DNA of 64,000 bases, from NCBI RefSeq assembly GCF_028767185.1, contig NZ_JARACK010000001.1, positions 372,001 to 436,000 on the forward strand, written 5' to 3'. The position numbers were made by a program, and so were the translations under genes. Origin of the DNA: Mangrovimonas aestuarii (GTDB lineage: Bacteria > Bacteroidota > Bacteroidia > Flavobacteriales > Flavobacteriaceae). Below the pieces are notes generated by a model. That model was not told the origin of the DNA. It saw only the letters and a program-made list of their open reading frames with translations, and ran no database searches. Shown here piece by piece: positions 42,917 to 51,502 of the stretch. The first letter of the stretch is position 1; every line of letters begins with the position of its first letter.

Positions 42917-45688
42917 ATGAGACAAACAACCTTAATTTTAGCACTATTTGCAACCCTGTTATCTTATGCTCAAAGCAATACAGGTTCAATAGTAGGGAAG
43001 CTTACTGACAAGGAGTTCGATAATGAACCATTGGCTTTCGCAAATGTATTAATTAAAGGAACAACTAAAGGAACAACTTCAGATTTTGACGGACTTTATG
43101 CTTTCGAAGGTTTGGAGCCAGGATCCTACACATTGGTATTTAGCTTCGTTGGATACGAAACCCAAGAAGTAGAAGCAACCGTAGAACCAGGTAAAGTAAC
43201 CGAAGTTCATATAGTTATGGGGGCTAGTGCCGCTTCTTTGGATGAAGTTATTATTACTACAACAACAAAAAGAGAGAGTGAAACAGCATTATTGTTAGAG
43301 CAAAAAGAAGCAGTTACTATAAAACAAAGTATTGGAGCTCAGGAATTATCCAGAAAAGGGGTTAGTGATGCTGAAAGTGCCGTAACGAAAGTGTCTGGTG
43401 TATCTAAATCTCAAGGAAGCAAGAATGTATTTGTTAGAGGTTTGGGAGACCGTTACAATGCCACGTCTTTAAACGGCTTACCGCTACCTTCTGAAGACCC
43501 AGAATACAAAAACATTGCTTTAGACTTCTTTAGCTCAGACATTATTGAGTCTGTGGGGATTAATAAAGTTTTTGATGGTCAATTATACGGAAACGTTGGA
43601 GGTGCAGATATCGATATCGTTTCAAAAGAAATGACTGGAAAAAGTATTTTTGAATTAGGGCTGGGAACAGGCTACAATGGTAATGTATTAGGAGCTTCTT
43701 TCCTTTCGCCAGACGGTGCTAACAGATTAGGAACAGGTATAAGTGTAGATAACCCAATTTCTGATTTGACTCAATACACTTTTTCAGATGGCTTAGATCC
43801 TACAGGAAGAAACAATACAGCAAACTACTCAGGTACATTAACTGGCGGTAAACGTTTTGATATTGGTGAAAACGGGAACACTTTATCTGCTTTTGTAACC
43901 ATTAGTGGTTCAAACGATTATTTATACAAAGAGGGTTCAATAAACCAATTCAACAGTGCAGGTGACAACAGCACCTATATGGATTCTTCCATTAGTGAGT
44001 TTTCAACCAGTCAATTAGGGCTATTAAACCTTAAGTACCGATTTGGAGAGAACAACTCAATCGCTTTAAACAGTGGCGTTATTAGAAAAGTAACTCAAAG
44101 TGTTGGTGAATATTTTGGTGAAAGCTCGAGCGTGAGTGACGATGAAGGCATTCAGGATTATATCCGTCGTCAGCAAACCAATAAAAACAACTTATACGTT
44201 AATCAATTATTAACGTCATTCAAGTTAAGTGAGAAACTAAAACTAGACGTTGACGGTAGCTACAACTTTATTAAAAGTTACGAACCAGATAGAAGAACAA
44301 ACAGTTTTATCAAGAAAATAGAAGCTGGTGAGGATTTTTTCAGAGTAGCAGTTGGTAGTGCTGGATTAAACCACCGTTTCTACTCAAACCTTGACGAAAA
44401 TGACATCTCTGCCAAAGGTGCTTTAACTTATAAATTAAACACTAATGACGATGAAGAATCAAACAGTGCTATTACTGTTGGAGGAAATTACCGTAATACT
44501 CAGAGAGATTTTATTTTCCGTCAATATAATTTCAACTTTGGTCAACAAGAGATTGTAGACATTAACAATCTAGATGCATTATTCAATCAGGAGAACATTA
44601 ACAACGGAACCTTTGAAATGGTAACTGATAGAGGACGTGCTGACCTTCCAAATGCATTAGATCCGTTTTCTTATACTGGAGACCGTAGCCTATATGCAGG
44701 ATATGCCCAAGGTATCTTTGATTTGTCAACAAACCTGACTTTGAGCGCTGGTATACGTTTTGAAAATGTAAACCAAGAAGTAGCTTGGGACACATCCCTT
44801 TCAACTTCGGTAAACGACCCTACGACTCCTAATGCTCTGATAGAAGACTCTTTCTTATTGCCAAGTGCATCTGTAAAGTACAACTTTAACGAAAATAGCA
44901 TCATCAGATTAGCGGGTAGTAAAACTTACATCTTACCACAGTACAAAGAGGTTGCTCCGTTCCTATATCAGGATGTTAACTTTGCCAGTTTCGGTAACCC
45001 ATTTCTAAAATCGTCTGAGGTATACAATGCAGATATTAAGTACGATTACTTCTTTTCAAGCGGCGAACTTGTTTCTGTTACTGGATTCTACAAATCTGTT
45101 AAAGATCCTATTAACCGTGTAAGAGTAAACAGTGCTGCTAACGAGCTTTCTTATGTAAATGTAGGTGACGCTATGGTTGCTGGATTTGAACTTGAGTTCA
45201 GAAAAAACATCTTTAACAAGGAAATTAGCGATGATGAACTTTCTAAGATGATGTTCGGACTAAACTTCTCATACCTACATTCAAACCAAAAACTTATTGA
45301 TGTAGACAGTGATGAATTAACCGTTAGATTTACAAATGATGAAGACAAATTGGAAGGCGCTGCACCAATTCTGTGGAACGCAGACTTAACTTATAACATC
45401 AAGAAAAACGGTATAGACCTTACCTCATCTTTAGTTGGGAATTATTTCAGTGATAAAATTTACTCTTTGGGTACAGCTGGCAACTCAAACTTTGTAGAGC
45501 AGTCTAGAATAACATTGGATTTTATTAACAAGTTAAAACTTAGCGAACACTTTGGACTAAGCCTTAAACTTAAAAACTTATTGAATCCAGATTTCCAAAT
45601 CACACAAAAAGTGTTGGGTGAAGAATTGCCAGTATCAACATACAAAGCAGGTGTAACCGGAAGTCTTGGACTTACCTATAAATTTTAA
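42917..45688 (+). CDS. TonB-dependent outer-membrane receptor of the phosphate cluster
   Basis: 923 residues. Signal peptide about 1-19 (LLSYAQ), carboxypeptidase-regulatory-like domain (about 22-102, FANVLIKGTTKGTTSDFDGLY), plug domain (about 125-245, ELSRKGVSDAESAVTKVSGV, FVRGLGDRYNATSLNGLPLPS), then a 22-strand barrel ending in GVTGSLGLTYKF. No SusD-like partner follows; instead a beta-helix lipoprotein gene does. The PHO-box array upstream suggests uptake of a phosphorus compound under phosphate limitation; this is inference. Confidence 0.93.
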   Translation: MRQTTLILALFATLLSYAQSNTGSIVGKLTDKEFDNEPLAFANVLIKGTTKGTTSDFDGLYAFEGLEPGSYTLVFSFVGYETQEVEATVEPGKVTEVHIVMGASAASLDEVIITTTTKRESETALLLEQKEAVTIKQSIGAQELSRKGVSDAESAVTKVSGVSKSQGSKNVFVRGLGDRYNATSLNGLPLPSEDPEYKNIALDFFSSDIIESVGINKVFDGQLYGNVGGADIDIVSKEMTGKSIFELGLGTGYNGNVLGASFLSPDGANRLGTGISVDNPISDLTQYTFSDGLDPTGRNNTANYSGTLTGGKRFDIGENGNTLSAFVTISGSNDYLYKEGSINQFNSAGDNSTYMDSSISEFSTSQLGLLNLKYRFGENNSIALNSGVIRKVTQSVGEYFGESSSVSDDEGIQDYIRRQQTNKNNLYVNQLLTSFKLSEKLKLDVDGSYNFIKSYEPDRRTNSFIKKIEAGEDFFRVAVGSAGLNHRFYSNLDENDISAKGALTYKLNTNDDEESNSAITVGGNYRNTQRDFIFRQYNFNFGQQEIVDINNLDALFNQENINNGTFEMVTDRGRADLPNALDPFSYTGDRSLYAGYAQGIFDLSTNLTLSAGIRFENVNQEVAWDTSLSTSVNDPTTPNALIEDSFLLPSASVKYNFNENSIIRLAGSKTYILPQYKEVAPFLYQDVNFASFGNPFLKSSEVYNADIKYDYFFSSGELVSVTGFYKSVKDPINRVRVNSAANELSYVNVGDAMVAGFELEFRKNIFNKEISDDELSKMMFGLNFSYLHSNQKLIDVDSDELTVRFTNDEDKLEGAAPILWNADLTYNIKKNGIDLTSSLVGNYFSDKIYSLGTAGNSNFVEQSRITLDFINKLKLSEHFGLSLKLKNLLNPDFQITQKVLGEELPVSTYKAGVTGSLGLTYKF

Positions 45689-45710
45689 ATTAACATAGCA
45701 GAGGTTTTAT

Positions 45711-45765
45711 TAATAAACACTTAACACTAAGCTAATCACTAGAATACACACGCTTAGTTTATTTG
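45711..45765 (+). promoter_or_regulatory. PHO-box array and -7 box of the surface lipoprotein
   Basis: TAATAAA (45711), TAACACT (45722), TAATCAC (45733), and a degenerate unit at 45744, all 11 bp apart, with TTTATTTG (45758-45765) 14 bp after the last unit start. Weaker than the porin array. Confidence 0.55.
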
Positions 45766-45807
45766 CAAAGATTTAAAACTCAAAAAAGTAACAAAAACAA
45801 AAACACA

Positions 45808-47016
45808 ATGAAAAAACTATTTATCTCAATGTTGGCTTTAGCGGCGATTGCTACTTTCAACTCTTGTTCAAGCAGTGATGACAGCTCTAATAATGGAGAG
45901 CCTACAGGACAAAAAGATGGATTGATCAGCTCTCAAACTGATGAAGATTTAGATCCTGCTGCTTTGAAAGGTGATGTTGTAGCAAACGTAACACTTACTT
46001 CTGACCAAACTTGGATACTAACTGGACCTTTATCTGTTAAAGATGGTTTCACGCTAACTATCGAGCCAGGAACCAGTATTCTAGCTCAAGCTGGAGGTAC
46101 AAACGTATACGTAGTAGTAGAGCAAGGTGCTAAGATAAACGCTGCAGGTACAGCTTCTGCACCAATTACTTTTACTTCAAACGCTGCTAACCCAAGATCT
46201 GGTGACTGGGGAGGAATTCTTATCAATGGTTACGCTAAAATCTCTGGTGGAGGAACTGCTACAACAGAAGTACTTCCATTGGCTTATGGAGGGAATGACG
46301 ACTCGGACAACTCTGGTGTAATGAGTCACGTAGTTATCGAGTACACTGGTGCTCGTATTAACGGAGAAAAAGAGTTTAACGGTCTTACACTTTATGCTGT
46401 AGGTAGCCAAACTCAATTAAACAACATCGCTATCAAAGAAGGTGATGATGACGGAATCGAGTTCTTTGGAGGAACTGTATCTGTAGAAAACTTACTTGTA
46501 ATTGATTCTCGTGATGATTTATTCGACTTTACTCAAGGGTGGAAAGGAACTGCAAACTCTAACTGGTATGGTGTTCGTACTTTAGGTTTCACTTCTATCT
46601 CAGAAGATACTAGAGGTATTGAAGGTGACGGTAACTTAGACGGAAACTCTCCTTCTGATGAAGGACAGTCTAACCCAACTATCAACAACGTTACTATTCT
46701 TAACAACGGAATCATTGAATTCGCTGATCTAGTAAAAGTTCGTAGAGGCGCAAGTGCAACTATCACTAACCTTTACTTAGGTTTCAACCAAGACAACAAC
46801 GAAGATGCAGCCCCTAGCGCTAGCGATACTATCGACTTAACAGATAGTAAAGGTGATGCTTTAGCTTCTACTTCTATTACAGGTTCTGTTAATGCTACAA
46901 GTGGAGTAGATATCGAGGATATTAAAAACGAATCTGGAGCTTTAGTTACTTTAACTGATGGATCTACTCCTTCTGTAGACAAAAATATATTCTCTTGGAC
47001 TGGTTTATCTTTCTAA
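45808..47016 (+). CDS. Beta-helix-like surface lipoprotein paired with the TonB receptor
   Basis: 402 residues. Lipoprotein signal with Cys20 (TFNSC), a Ser/Asp-rich linker (SSSDDSSNNG), then repetitive short strands of parallel beta-helix type (SGDWGGILINGYAKISGG; HVVIEYTGARINGEKEFNGLTLYAVG). Similar flavobacterial proteins are sometimes misannotated as 'multidrug transporter'. It lies 119 bp after the TonB receptor. The SDDSSN tail after the Cys may serve as a surface-export signal. The start is the ATG at 45808; the TTG at 45763 is inside the -7 box. Likely a surface partner that captures substrate for the receptor. Confidence 0.85.
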   Translation: MKKLFISMLALAAIATFNSCSSSDDSSNNGEPTGQKDGLISSQTDEDLDPAALKGDVVANVTLTSDQTWILTGPLSVKDGFTLTIEPGTSILAQAGGTNVYVVVEQGAKINAAGTASAPITFTSNAANPRSGDWGGILINGYAKISGGGTATTEVLPLAYGGNDDSDNSGVMSHVVIEYTGARINGEKEFNGLTLYAVGSQTQLNNIAIKEGDDDGIEFFGGTVSVENLLVIDSRDDLFDFTQGWKGTANSNWYGVRTLGFTSISEDTRGIEGDGNLDGNSPSDEGQSNPTINNVTILNNGIIEFADLVKVRRGASATITNLYLGFNQDNNEDAAPSASDTIDLTDSKGDALASTSITGSVNATSGVDIEDIKNESGALVTLTDGSTPSVDKNIFSWTGLSF

Positions 47017-47104: not shown

Positions 47105-47464
47105 CTATTCCCTCGTGGCGATTTGTGATGTTCTTGTCCATTCATTTACACTGGCTATAGTATTGCTTGTATAATCAACTTCTCTTAAAGTATCATCATT
47201 CCAAAAGAACCACTTACCAACCTTTCTCCCATCATCGTAATTAGCAACAGCTACTTTTTCCCCTTGAGTATTATAACTAATCCATTCTCCATCTAACTTA
47301 CCATCTAAGGTATAATGTCCAGTTTGACTCACCTCTCCATTATCGTGATAGTAAACTACTTCAATTTGCTTATTCTTATTATCTAATTTCAAATCTCTTT
47401 CCTGCTGTGCATAAGTACATACTCCAAACACAAACGCCACTAAAAACAATACATTCCTTTTCAT
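47105..47464 (-). CDS. MORN-repeat (YwqK-like) exported protein
   Basis: 119 residues. Signal peptide about 1-19 (ending CTYAQ). Residues about 37-95 carry short MORN-like (toxin-antitoxin YwqK family) repeats: HDNGEVSQTGHYTLDGKLDGEWISY, then GKWFFWND. Labels of the 'YwqK antitoxin' kind come from homology only; no toxin is adjacent. Promoter: a perfect TATATTTG on the minus strand (47502-47495) is 30 nt before the ATG. It is divergent from the candidate small RNA. Confidence 0.75.
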   Translation of the reverse strand: MKRNVLFLVAFVFGVCTYAQQERDLKLDNKNKQIEVVYYHDNGEVSQTGHYTLDGKLDGEWISYNTQGEKVAVANYDDGRKVGKWFFWNDDTLREVDYTSNTIASVNEWTRTSQIATRE

Positions 47465-47533: not shown

Positions 47534-47551
47534 TAACATTAAATTAACATT
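47534..47551 (+). promoter_or_regulatory. Isolated pair of PHO-like repeats
   Basis: TAACATT (47534) and TAACATT (47545) are two perfect units, exactly 11 bp apart. No -7 box lies 14 bp downstream on the plus strand, so the target is unclear. The site may be read with the minus-strand MORN-repeat gene, or help the small RNA promoter. Confidence 0.5.
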
Positions 47552-47620
47552 GAAAACACAAAACACTGTTTAACAACTATTTAAACATTCGTTTTTAATA
47601 CAAATCTTTTAATATACAGT

Positions 47621-47664
47621 TAATATTCCCTTTAAGTTAAAGTTACTTAGAAGAAGCATATTTG
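47621..47664 (+). promoter_or_regulatory. PHO-box-like array and -7 box of the candidate small RNA
   Basis: TAATATT (47621), TTAAGTT (47632) and TTACTTA (47643) are in phase at 11 bp, the last starting 14 bp before CATATTTG (47657-47664). The units are degenerate; the shared spacing is the main support. Confidence 0.55.
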
Positions 47665-47668
47665 CTAA

Positions 47669-47772
47669 GGTTTACAAAACCACTAAGCAAAAGTATTTCA
47701 TATAATACATTAGTTTTTGTCGACTTAATTATATTGAAATCTAAGGCTACCCGTCCTGGGTAGCCTTCTTTA
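47669..47772 (+). ncRNA. Candidate phosphate-regulated small RNA
   Basis: Starting about 5 nt after the -7 box, a 5' hairpin (GGTTT 47669-47673, AAACC 47677-47681) is followed by an unstructured A/T-rich stretch, then a perfect 10-bp terminator stem (47743-47752 with 47758-47767) and CTTTATT. No ATG-started frame is present. The middle is complementary to the porin leader (47709-47722 with 47849-47862, 14 bp), the TonB receptor leader (47729-47740 with 42902-42913, 12 bp) and, with one bulged A, the PiT leader (47702-47713). Confidence 0.6.
47743..47772 (+). terminator. Terminator of the candidate small RNA
   Basis: AAGGCTACCC (47743-47752) and GGGTAGCCTT (47758-47767) form a perfect stem with loop GTCCT, followed by CTTTATT. 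Confidence 0.8.
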
Positions 47773-47800: not shown

Positions 47801-47844
47801 TAACCGTCACGTAACATTAACTTAACATTAGATATAGTTCTTTG
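47801..47844 (+). promoter_or_regulatory. PHO-box array and -7 box of the OprP-like porin
   Basis: TAACCGT (47801), TAACATT (47812) and TAACATT (47823), exactly 11 bp apart; the last starts 14 bp before GTTCTTTG (47837-47844). This is the clearest array in the window. Confidence 0.8.
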
Positions 47845-47868
47845 CACCCGACAAAAACTAATACATTT

Positions 47869-49113
47869 ATGAAATTTCTACCATTATGCATCGCGCTATT
47901 TTTATACGCGGGTATTATGCACGCACAGGACATTCATTCTTCTGCTTTCGGGAAAGGTATCTTCAACATTACTGGTAAAGACAGTACTTGGACTATGAAA
48001 ATTGGTGCCAGAGTTCAAATATTGGCCTCAACTACTTCTTCTCTAAATAACGATGAAGAAGTTGGACTAGTAAACGAGGATCTTTTTTATGATTTCAATT
48101 CTAACTTCTTGATAAGACGTGCACGTTTAAAGTTTAACGGATATGCTTTAACCAAAAATTTAGAGTATAAACTAGAACTTGGCCTATCAAATAGAGATAT
48201 AGCTGGAGCAAATGCATTTACAGGAAATGCACCTCGTTACATTTTAGATGCTTACATGAAGTGGAAATTCTACAAAAACTTTCAACTTTGGTTTGGTCAG
48301 TTCAAACTGCCTGGGAATCGTGAACGTGTAATATCGTCTGGAAACCTTCAATTTGTTGATCGCTCTTTGGTTAACTCTAACTACAACTTAGATCGTGATG
48401 TAGGTATTCAACTGAGACACCATTTTACTTTAGGAAATCAATTTTTAATTCGTGAAATAATTGCTATTTCTCAAGGGGAAGGTAGAAACATTGTTTCTGG
48501 TAATATTGGCGGCTACGAATATACTGGTCGATTGGAATTCTTACCATTTGGAAAATTTACAGGAAAAGGTGATTATTCTTCAAGCGATCTTGAAAGAGAA
48601 CAGACTCCTAAACTAGCCCTAGGTGTAACCTACGATTTCAATAACGATGCTGTTCGTTCTAGAGGAAATCAAGGTTCATTTATGGTTTACGAAAACGAAA
48701 ATGGAGAACAGGAATTTTTCAAGAGCAACGTCTCTACGTTTATTGTGGACGCCATGTTTAAATACAAAGGATTTTCATTCATGGGAGAGTTTGCTAGTCG
48801 AAGTGCTAATGAAGATGCATTTTTCCTAAATGATACAGACGAAAGTCCGCTTTTTACAGTAAACACAGGAGACGGAGTTAATCTTCAAGCTGGTTATTTA
48901 TTCCCTAGTAACTGGGAAATTGCTGGACGTTTTACAACTGTTAATTCAGGGTTTAATGAACCAATCCTTGATTTTGATAATCAATATACTATTGGGTTCT
49001 CAAGATACATTGTTGGACACAAACTAAAAGTGCAATCTGACCTAACTTTTTTTTCAATTCAAAATGCTGATGACGAGTTAGCTTACAGATTACAATTCGA
49101 TATCCATTTTTAA
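47869..49113 (+). CDS. OprO/OprP-family phosphate-selective porin
   Basis: 414 residues. Signal peptide about 1-20 (GIMHAQ), then an outer-membrane barrel: GARVQILAS, NFLIRRARLKFNGYALTKNLEYKLELGLSN, LWFGQFKLPGNRERVISSGNLQFVDRS, and the closing LAYRLQFDIHF. The RRARLKF and GQFKLP motifs are those of the OprO/OprP family of phosphate and polyphosphate porins. It starts at the ATG at 47869; the TTG at 47842 is in the -7 box. It sits between the candidate small RNA and PiT, with PHO-like arrays on both sides. Confidence 0.88.
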   Translation: MKFLPLCIALFLYAGIMHAQDIHSSAFGKGIFNITGKDSTWTMKIGARVQILASTTSSLNNDEEVGLVNEDLFYDFNSNFLIRRARLKFNGYALTKNLEYKLELGLSNRDIAGANAFTGNAPRYILDAYMKWKFYKNFQLWFGQFKLPGNRERVISSGNLQFVDRSLVNSNYNLDRDVGIQLRHHFTLGNQFLIREIIAISQGEGRNIVSGNIGGYEYTGRLEFLPFGKFTGKGDYSSSDLEREQTPKLALGVTYDFNNDAVRSRGNQGSFMVYENENGEQEFFKSNVSTFIVDAMFKYKGFSFMGEFASRSANEDAFFLNDTDESPLFTVNTGDGVNLQAGYLFPSNWEIAGRFTTVNSGFNEPILDFDNQYTIGFSRYIVGHKLKVQSDLTFFSIQNADDELAYRLQFDIHF

Positions 49114-49189: not shown

Positions 49190-51502
49190 ATGGAAAACAT
49201 TTATTTATTAATGATTGTTGCTCTTGCCATACTGGCAGTAGCAGATTTAGTAGTTGGAGTTAGCAACGATGCGGTTAACTTCTTAAACTCGGCGATAGGG
49301 TCTAAGGCTATCTCTTTTAAGACCATTATGATTGTTGCTAGTTTAGGGGTGGCAGTAGGTGCCGTATTCTCTAGCGGAATGATGGAGGTAGCACGAAAGG
49401 GAATCTTCAACCCCGGAGAGTTTATGTTCAATGAGATCATGATTATTTTCATGGCTGTAATGATTACAGATATACTCTTGTTGGATTTCTTTAATACTGT
49501 GGGGATGCCTACCTCAACAACAGTGTCTATAGTTTTTGAACTATTAGGTGCAGCTGTTGCAATGTCCTTAATAAAAATAGGTGCCGACGGAGGGAGTTTT
49601 GCAGATGTGGTAAACTATATCAACACTTCAAAAGCCACACAAATTATATTTGGGATATTACTCTCGGTAGTCGTCGCATTTACAGTGGGAGCTATTGTAC
49701 AGTGGATTTTTAGAGCGTGGCTTTCTTACGACTTTGAGAATAAAGCTAAATGGGTTGGACCTTTATTTGGAGGTATTGCTTTAACAGCTATTACGTATTT
49801 CATCTTTATGAAAGGATTGAAAGGTACTAATATGGCAAAAAACAACTTGGATATGCTGGGTGGTATTACCATTAAAGACTTCCTTGAAACACAAGTTTTG
49901 ACAATCGTGGCTGTTAGTTTGGTATTTTGGTCATTGATCTCTGCAGCATTAATTAGCATATTTAAACAGAATATTTACAAAGTAACAATTATTGTTGGAA
50001 CCTTTGGTCTTGCATTAGCTTTTGCTGGTAACGACTTAGTAAACTTTATTGGTGTCCCTATCGCTGCCTGGCAATCTTATGAGCAATGGGTAGCATCTGG
50101 CTCACCTGCAACAGGATTTGGAATGGGCGTTTTAGCAGAAAAAGTACCTACTCCAACATTATTCCTGTTAATTGCTGGAATGGTTATGGTGGCTACACTT
50201 TGGTTTTCAAGCAAGGCTAAAGCTGTAGTTAAAACATCTTTGGACCTTTCTAGCCAAGAAGACACTAAAGAACGCTTTCAACCAAACTTTTTATCACGTG
50301 GATTTGTGCGTTTAGCTATGGCAATGTCTCAAATGACATCATACGTAATGCCACAAAGCTGGCAGGATAAACTTGAAGTACAATTTACTAAACCAGCAGT
50401 GACTATCAAGAAAGAAAAAAATGGTGATGCTCCTGCATTCGATATGGTTCGTGCCTCTGTAAACCTGATGGTTGCCAGTGTTTTAATTTCGATAGCTACA
50501 TCTATGAAATTACCGTTATCTACAACTTATGTAACTTTCATGGTTGCAATGGGTACATCTTTAGCTGATCGTGCTTGGGGTGCAGAAAGTGCTGTTTATC
50601 GTGTAGCTGGTGTTCTTAACGTTATTGGAGGATGGTTTTTCACGGCTTTAATAGCTTTTGTATCGGCCGCTACGATAGCCTATTTAATTAATCTTCACGT
50701 ACCTTCTATGGTTGGTGTACTATTGCTTTTAGCTACCTTATTATTAGTAAGAAACTATATTGCACACAAAAAGAAGGGGAAAGAACAAGAGGCTGGAGAT
50801 AAACTTACAAAAGCAGAAAGCAGCTCTATTCAAGGTGTAATTCACGAAAGTGCCCATAACATTGCCAACGTAGTAAATAGAAGTAACAGAATTTACACTA
50901 ATGCTATTGAAGGCTTATCAAAACAAGATTTACCTGCCCTTAAGAAAAATAAAAGACAGGTTGTAAAATTATTGGATGAGATAGACGACTTACGTGATAA
51001 TATTTTCTATTTCATTAAAAACTTGGATGAATCAAGTTTAGGGGCATCTAACTTCTATATTAACATTCTTGGTTACCTTCAAGATATGGCACAGTCATTA
51101 GAATATATCTCTAAAGTGAGCCATAAGCACATCAACAACAATCACAAAAAACTTAAGTTCTCTCAAATTAAAGAACTTAAGGAAGTAGATGATGCTCTAG
51201 AAACCTTATTATTGGAAACAAAAGAAGCTTTTGACACAAGCACATTTGAGAAAATCGGGGATATTCTTAAAGACAGACAAAAGGTGTTCGATATGCTTTC
51301 TGATAAAATCCATAAGCAAGTAGAACGTACACGTAGTGATGAGTCGAGCCCTAAAAATACTACCCTGTATTTTGGGTTATTATTAGAAACAAAAGACTTC
51401 CTTACAGCTACTATGAATCTGTTAGACGAGTATAACAGTGCCCACGACAGTTCTGTAAAACCTGCAACTATTAAAGAAGAAACATCTAAAATAGAAGCTT
51501 AA
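49190..51502 (+). CDS. PiT inorganic phosphate transporter with C-terminal PhoU-like domain
   Basis: 770 residues. Two PiT repeats: VADLVVGVSNDAVNFLNSAIGSKA (about 14-37) and the second GNDLVNFIGVPIAAW (near 281-296), the two signature GANDxxN-like segments. Membrane helices fill about 1-365 and 430-525. Residues about 545-760 form a helical PhoU/DUF47-like domain (ESAHNIANVVNRSNRIYTNAIEGL). A phosphate importer fused to a regulator-like domain makes sense in a phosphate cluster. The start is the ATG at 49190; the TTG at 49166 lies in the -7 box. Confidence 0.92.
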   Translation: MENIYLLMIVALAILAVADLVVGVSNDAVNFLNSAIGSKAISFKTIMIVASLGVAVGAVFSSGMMEVARKGIFNPGEFMFNEIMIIFMAVMITDILLLDFFNTVGMPTSTTVSIVFELLGAAVAMSLIKIGADGGSFADVVNYINTSKATQIIFGILLSVVVAFTVGAIVQWIFRAWLSYDFENKAKWVGPLFGGIALTAITYFIFMKGLKGTNMAKNNLDMLGGITIKDFLETQVLTIVAVSLVFWSLISAALISIFKQNIYKVTIIVGTFGLALAFAGNDLVNFIGVPIAAWQSYEQWVASGSPATGFGMGVLAEKVPTPTLFLLIAGMVMVATLWFSSKAKAVVKTSLDLSSQEDTKERFQPNFLSRGFVRLAMAMSQMTSYVMPQSWQDKLEVQFTKPAVTIKKEKNGDAPAFDMVRASVNLMVASVLISIATSMKLPLSTTYVTFMVAMGTSLADRAWGAESAVYRVAGVLNVIGGWFFTALIAFVSAATIAYLINLHVPSMVGVLLLLATLLLVRNYIAHKKKGKEQEAGDKLTKAESSSIQGVIHESAHNIANVVNRSNRIYTNAIEGLSKQDLPALKKNKRQVVKLLDEIDDLRDNIFYFIKNLDESSLGASNFYINILGYLQDMAQSLEYISKVSHKHINNNHKKLKFSQIKELKEVDDALETLLLETKEAFDTSTFEKIGDILKDRQKVFDMLSDKIHKQVERTRSDESSPKNTTLYFGLLLETKDFLTATMNLLDEYNSAHDSSVKPATIKEETSKIEA

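Follow-up and report, generated by a model that had tools for sequence, protein, structure and literature searches.

Organization of the sRNA locus

The features of the locus are listed in Table 1, with positions counted in the window (the whole 64-kb stretch of Mangrovimonas aestuarii DNA that was analysed). A candidate small RNA (sRNA) gene lies upstream of a porin O/P family gene, and a PiT-type phosphate transporter gene follows the porin. A TonB receptor gene and a gene for a protein without a Pfam match precede the sRNA, and many relatives have a TonB relative approximately 4–5.6 kb before the sRNA. The small gene that is divergent to the sRNA encodes a MORN-repeat-like secreted protein, and a gene similar to it stays beside the sRNA even when the porin is displaced (L370). 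A second perfect operator, in addition to the one assigned to the sRNA, sits between the divergent gene and the sRNA, with approximately 110 bp separating it from the sRNA -7 box downstream.

Table 1. Genes, promoter elements and RNA segments of the sRNA–porin locus
Feature	Position	Strand	Basis
TonB receptor and 417-aa protein without Pfam match	42917..47016		
Small MORN-repeat-like secreted protein gene	47105..47464	-	
Second perfect operator, TAACATTAAATTAACATT	47534..47551		
PHO-like operator of sRNA; half-sites spaced by ~11 bp (AATATA and AATATT, thereafter degenerate), lying around -50/-39/-28 relative to TTTG	47611..47649	+	family profile
-7 box of sRNA, CATATTTG	47657..47664	+	sequence; family consensus gATaTTTG; start inferred at ~47668-47671
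Small RNA gene, ~104 nt	47669..47772	+	conserved in relatives; fold z -5.0; transcript predicted
5' hairpin of sRNA, GGUUUACAAAACC; in relatives often UGUCUUAAGACA	47669..47681	+	folding, alignments
Long central hairpin; seed in loop, start-codon-complementary stretch on 5' strand	47692..47742	+	covariation
Block 2 of sRNA, AUUUCAUA, complements porin start codon region	47695..47702	+	co-variation with ATG-4..+12
Seed, AUUAGUUUUUGUCG, with apical loop UUUUGUCG	47709..47722	+	14-nt perfect complement of porin leader; compensatory change in G066/G286
Intrinsic terminator, AAGGCUACCC-GUCCU-GGGUAGCCUU, and U-rich tail	47743..47772	+	sequence, alignments; stem-loop 47743-47767
PHO-like operator of porin, TAACATTAACTTAACATT	47812..47829	+	promoter profiles
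-7 box of porin, GTTCTTTG	47837..47844	+	consensus of 168 porin promoters
Antiseed, CGACAAAAACTAAT, at predicted porin mRNA 5' end	47849..47862	+	family loci, promoter profile
Porin start region, UAUGAAAU, partner of block 2	47868..47875	+	duplex, co-variation
Porin O/P family gene, target (PF07396, E 9.7e-12)	47869..49113	+	Pfam
PiT-type phosphate transporter (PF01384); leader unsupported as target	49190..51502	+	Pfam

Structure of the sRNA

The sRNA gene has its own promoter and intrinsic terminator, and its -7 box, operator and terminator are all conserved. The original prediction described a -7 box upstream of an RNA of about 104 nt with a 5' hairpin, an unstructured middle and an intrinsic terminator. 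A -7-like box was confirmed, folding reproduced the 5' hairpin, and the terminator stem-loop with its U tract was found again. The middle, however, is not unstructured. Both folding and covariation gave a long hairpin, and the apical loop of this hairpin is the seed. The whole sRNA folded at -28.0 kcal/mol, compared with -14.7 ± 2.7 kcal/mol for shuffled sequences. In 70 distinct core sequences, 92.5% of the pair cells of the central hairpin were standard, and changes on both sides were observed in 13 of its 18 pairs. None of 500 shuffles matched any of these measures, and the signal was lost when the partner was slid.

No shared reading frame was seen across the aligned sRNA copies. A reading of the element on the minus strand was rejected: the U-rich tail is absent there, and a short frame starting with ATGAAATAC is not conserved. 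No family of Rfam release 15 matched the sRNA, and no gathering threshold was exceeded.

Distribution of the sRNA family

DNA comparison with 60 relatives detected the sRNA region in other genera. A covariance model was then used, which was made from the 58-nt core only and excluded the terminator. With this model, the sRNA was found in 84 of 299 Flavobacteriaceae genomes, belonging to 74 of 236 genera. A pattern scan of named genomes gave at least 118 sRNA stretches, and the matches listed included Algibacter, Maribacter, Lacinutrix, Aequorivita, Tenacibaculum, Arenibacter, Winogradskyella, Flagellimonas, Olleya and Polaribacter. The carriers are mostly marine flavobacteria and represent dozens of genera. 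Among the sampled genomes that have the porin, approximately half gave no covariance-model match. Outside the family, the 296 genomes of the order gave a single weak match (E 0.004) within an apparent coding sequence, and genus g146, which is frequent in the order sample, had no sRNA match among the matches listed.

Pairing with the porin leader

The mRNA of the porin is predicted to begin with the antiseed CGACAAAAACUAAU right after the -7 box. The antiseed begins a few bases past the TTTG of this box and should therefore form the 5' terminus of this mRNA. The original prediction of a 14-nt complement in this leader was exact (seed and antiseed, Table 1). The complement is also unique, since the sRNA has no other 13- or 14-nt perfect complement in the window, itself aside. 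The duplex of the sRNA and the porin leader had an energy of -25.2 kcal/mol, whereas shuffles gave -10.1 ± 2.6 kcal/mol, and 0 of 1000 shuffles were as good. A second complementary block, which had gone unnoticed earlier, pairs block 2 of the sRNA with the start region of the porin, over the start codon.

The same arrangement was seen in relatives. Of the 179 loci whose terminator is clear, 172 have the antiseed leader shortly downstream of the sRNA. Cognate porin pairs beat shuffled leaders in 98% of 161 loci, with a median z of -4.6.

Many of the loci were collected by the seed pattern, so that the sRNA side is ascertained and the seed is shared by construction. The leader side is free of this ascertainment, and so is the synteny set, in which porin orthologues were sought by protein and the upstream DNA was read where there was no model match. 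In the synteny set, the antiseed was present in all 32 loci with a recognised sRNA and absent in 26 of 34 loci without one (Fisher p=1e-11). The eight exceptions were inspected by eye. Three of them (L310, L318 and L328) have an sRNA with an imperfect terminator, the match in L356 is coding sequence, that in L355 is weak, genome G314 is 84% complete, and the sRNA is displaced in G123 and G101.

Co-evolution of the sRNA and the porin leader

Both pairing sides are kept in relatives, as the original prediction had asked to be checked, and they co-evolve. When leaders were redealt among loci, the mismatches rose from 89 to 111.2 ± 3.7, and 0 of 2000 redeals were as low. Leader variants within the core are often G-U compatible. 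The clearest case came from the synteny set and not from the seed pattern. Two genomes of one genus, G066 and G286, have the seed GUUUUAGUC and the leader GACUAAAAC, which is a double compensatory change in the middle of the core and probably a single event. Their cognate duplex had an energy of -22.7 kcal/mol, compared with -17.2 or -18.1 kcal/mol when one side was canonical. The pair has an unusual start codon of its own and matches across it as AUCAUUG/CAAUGAU.

Co-variation was also found outside the core. Cluster tests are given here because close relatives inflate the counts. In the flanks, the 5' strand of the sRNA paired better with its own porin in 26 of 31 clusters (p 1e-5), and this signal came from positions ATG-4..+12 of that porin (p 4e-6, again in 26 of 31 clusters). 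Reversed sRNA and reversed leader controls were not significant, and the spacer between the core and the ATG alone showed no co-variation.

The element resembles the leader and start of the porin in inverted form, and it might be read as an inverted repeat at the DNA level, either a protein site or a relic of recombination, with no RNA pairing. The compensatory seed change, the G-U compatible leader variants, the start-codon co-variation, and the conserved hairpin and U-rich terminator all speak against this reading, and we regard it as scarcely credible. On the alignments, the sRNA has a conserved seed that is complementary to the translation initiation region of the porin and co-evolves with it. 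The central part of the original prediction was borne out and is stronger than earlier claimed. Conservation and co-evolution strongly favour a real sRNA that has a PHO-like promoter and pairs beside the porin start. As judged from the sequences, the sRNA very probably controls porin production through direct base pairing.

The sRNA and the porin as separate transcripts

The sRNA is encoded apart from its target, and its own terminator precedes the porin promoter. Seed and antiseed share a strand, at a distance of 127 nt, and could pair in a read-through transcript. One reading is that a long porin transcript starts with the element, and that seed and antiseed form an intramolecular switch around the terminator. 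However, the antiseed lies downstream of the terminator and so cannot act as an antiterminator, and the porin's own operator and -7 box sit between them. In G123 and G101, the sRNA and the porin are 2.6–3.2 kb apart and the pairing is kept. A SulP-type transporter gene and a carbonic anhydrase gene, both read from translations only, lie between them on the opposite strand. Because the pairing is kept in these two genomes despite the intervening genes, the sRNA should act as a separate transcript. The sRNA also persists without the porin in G014, G143 and G129. The element is not always the 5' part of a porin transcript, and a cis-acting leader or riboswitch of the porin, which we consider very improbable, is largely refuted. 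Separability from the porin, like the gene family, the structure and the co-evolving pairing, was shown by the computations.

Behind the sRNA of G094 and G132 lies a non-orthologous porin that bears the same antiseed. The G132 porin has 23% identity to the porin of the window over 161 residues. In another genome (G163), two copies of the sRNA and porin leader were observed (L206 and L207), and in the L206 copy the porin-like frame ends soon after the signal peptide.

TonB, PiT and a wider regulon

The original prediction had named three targets, of which the porin pairing was conserved and the other two were not upheld. The PiT leader beat its shuffles (p<=0.05) in 5% of 91 loci, which is the chance level. 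Pairing with the TonB leader was weak or lineage-specific. In the window it had p ~0.025 before multiple testing and involves a different, non-seed part of the sRNA, and TonB leaders beat their shuffles in 15% of 33 loci. In the TonB leaders of L068, L128 and L151, the -7 box is soon followed by GATAAAAAC(T)-type sites, which resemble the antiseed with a G-U pair.

The porin could still be one of several targets, including TonB and PiT, or its leader could be a sponge for an sRNA whose main targets lie elsewhere. The GATAAAAAC-type sites lie at the same place in these three TonB leaders, and the three genomes without an adjoining porin orthologue (G014, L021; G143, L037; G129, L202) keep an sRNA with an intact seed, with PiT downstream in all three. 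Since the sRNA is retained there, another target may exist. On the other side stand the figures for PiT and TonB given above and a search of 14 genomes, in which the antiseed pattern was not enriched over the reversed control; a large regulon built on the antiseed motif was rejected for this reason. Among the antiseed copies of G000, only the porin copy falls in a leader. We think that a broader regulon is unlikely, and that the adjoining porin is the dedicated target.

Promoters and a plausible phosphate signal

The earlier claim of a shared promoter type was supported across relatives, in which 11-bp direct repeats lie upstream of the sRNA, porin, PiT and TonB genes. Self-similarity peaked at 11 bp in the promoters of all four, whose half-sites resemble TTAACATT. 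For the sRNA, the profile of 135 promoters gave an autocorrelation peak at lag 11, and in the window the third half-site of this operator does not follow the consensus. The sRNA and PiT promoters have a common GATATTTG -7 box and half-sites further upstream, and the porin and TonB promoters have a common weak -7 (TTCTTTG) and closer half-sites. A strict operator search in the window's own genome gave five matches, which was no excess over the control, and yielded no regulon.

An arrangement in 11-bp direct repeats is typical of PhoB operators. From the sequence of the operator, we infer that it is tied to PhoB itself. Phosphate limitation is a plausible signal in view of the neighbouring genes and the shared operator. 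In Flavobacterium johnsoniae, the TonB receptor gene of the PhoBR operon was strongly induced by phosphate depletion, and the OprP gene of the same operon was not (PMC8115612). The PstS-type phosphate-binding protein PF12849 (E<=1e-10) was found in none of 17 sRNA genomes (G000 and 16 others), and 13 of 14 control genomes were positive. Phosphate uptake in genomes without PF12849 may rest on the porin and PiT.

Proposed mechanism

Hfq (PF17209) was absent from 15 genomes, and the controls were positive. We consider it likely that the sRNA is a trans-acting, dedicated, antisense-type RNA which represses the adjoining porin, is under PHO-like control and acts independently of Hfq. Presumably it is transcribed from its own promoter and needs no protein partner. 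In the proposed course of binding, the 8-nt apical loop of the central hairpin would touch the porin mRNA right at its 5' terminus, on CGACAAAA, and the pairing would then spread to 14 bp. Once opened, the 5' strand of the hairpin would pair through its UUUCAU block with AUGAAA. As the leader and the start codon would be covered on an mRNA without a Shine-Dalgarno sequence, a block of translation initiation and mRNA decay are the most likely consequences.

Repression is the most likely sign because the pairing covers the 5' end and the AUG of the porin mRNA. The same duplex might act positively, if pairing at the 5' end shielded the porin mRNA from decay or removed an inhibitor and so aided expression in phosphate shortage. 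This would fit the start of the pairing at the predicted mRNA 5' end, and the sRNA and porin seem to be under the same regulator. However, the co-evolving second block over the start codon should exclude the ribosome, and the porin leader is A-rich with little to unfold. We judge positive action to be improbable and retain repression.

Because the sRNA and the porin share the operator type with 11-bp direct repeats, they probably form an incoherent feed-forward loop. Such a loop would cap or time porin synthesis, and PiT and the TonB receptor would stay induced. Somewhat short of even confidence, we put forward a fuller scheme. A family-wide sRNA for one porin, in genomes without detected Hfq or Pst binding protein (15 and 17 genomes, respectively), would hold a copy of its target's start in its hairpin, and binding would be a strand exchange from the sRNA stem to the mRNA start codon. 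With a PHO-type regulator, the incoherent loop would decouple the porin from PiT.

Few sRNA–target pairs are known in Bacteroidota, and we found none described at comparable depth (tens of genera with both partners comparable). The sRNA/porin pairs provide a naturally occurring set of compensatory mutants in which to study sRNA action without detected Hfq or Shine-Dalgarno, and they suggest that common marine bacteria control phosphate uptake at the post-transcriptional level.

Comparison with known sRNAs

MicF, MicC and MicA of enterobacteria are sRNAs linked to the porin system that cover the start region and thereby repress translation of the porin. They depend on Hfq and target the Shine-Dalgarno sequence or the nearby coding sequence. 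The present sRNA gene likewise lies beside a porin; it has no sequence relation to them, and no Hfq was found here. By analogy, the closest tested precedent for the mechanism is GibS of Bacteroides thetaiotaomicron, in which repression by pairing across the start codon was demonstrated (PMC7366714). Like the porin sRNA, GibS is an intergenic, intrinsically terminated Bacteroidota sRNA without Hfq, which pairs with the start codons of mRNAs lacking a Shine-Dalgarno sequence, and one of its target operons adjoins the sRNA gene (PMC7366714). GibS differs in its long unstructured 5' seed and sugar-linked expression, whereas here the seed is in a hairpin loop, the target is a porin, the operator is PHO-like, and conservation extends over many genera of a family. 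The porin sRNA has nothing in common with the entries of Rfam release 15. Rfp18 of Flavobacterium psychrophilum is likewise a structured, conserved flavobacterial sRNA, and it differs in its link to metalloprotease mRNAs and in its conservation within the genus Flavobacterium (PMC9723704).
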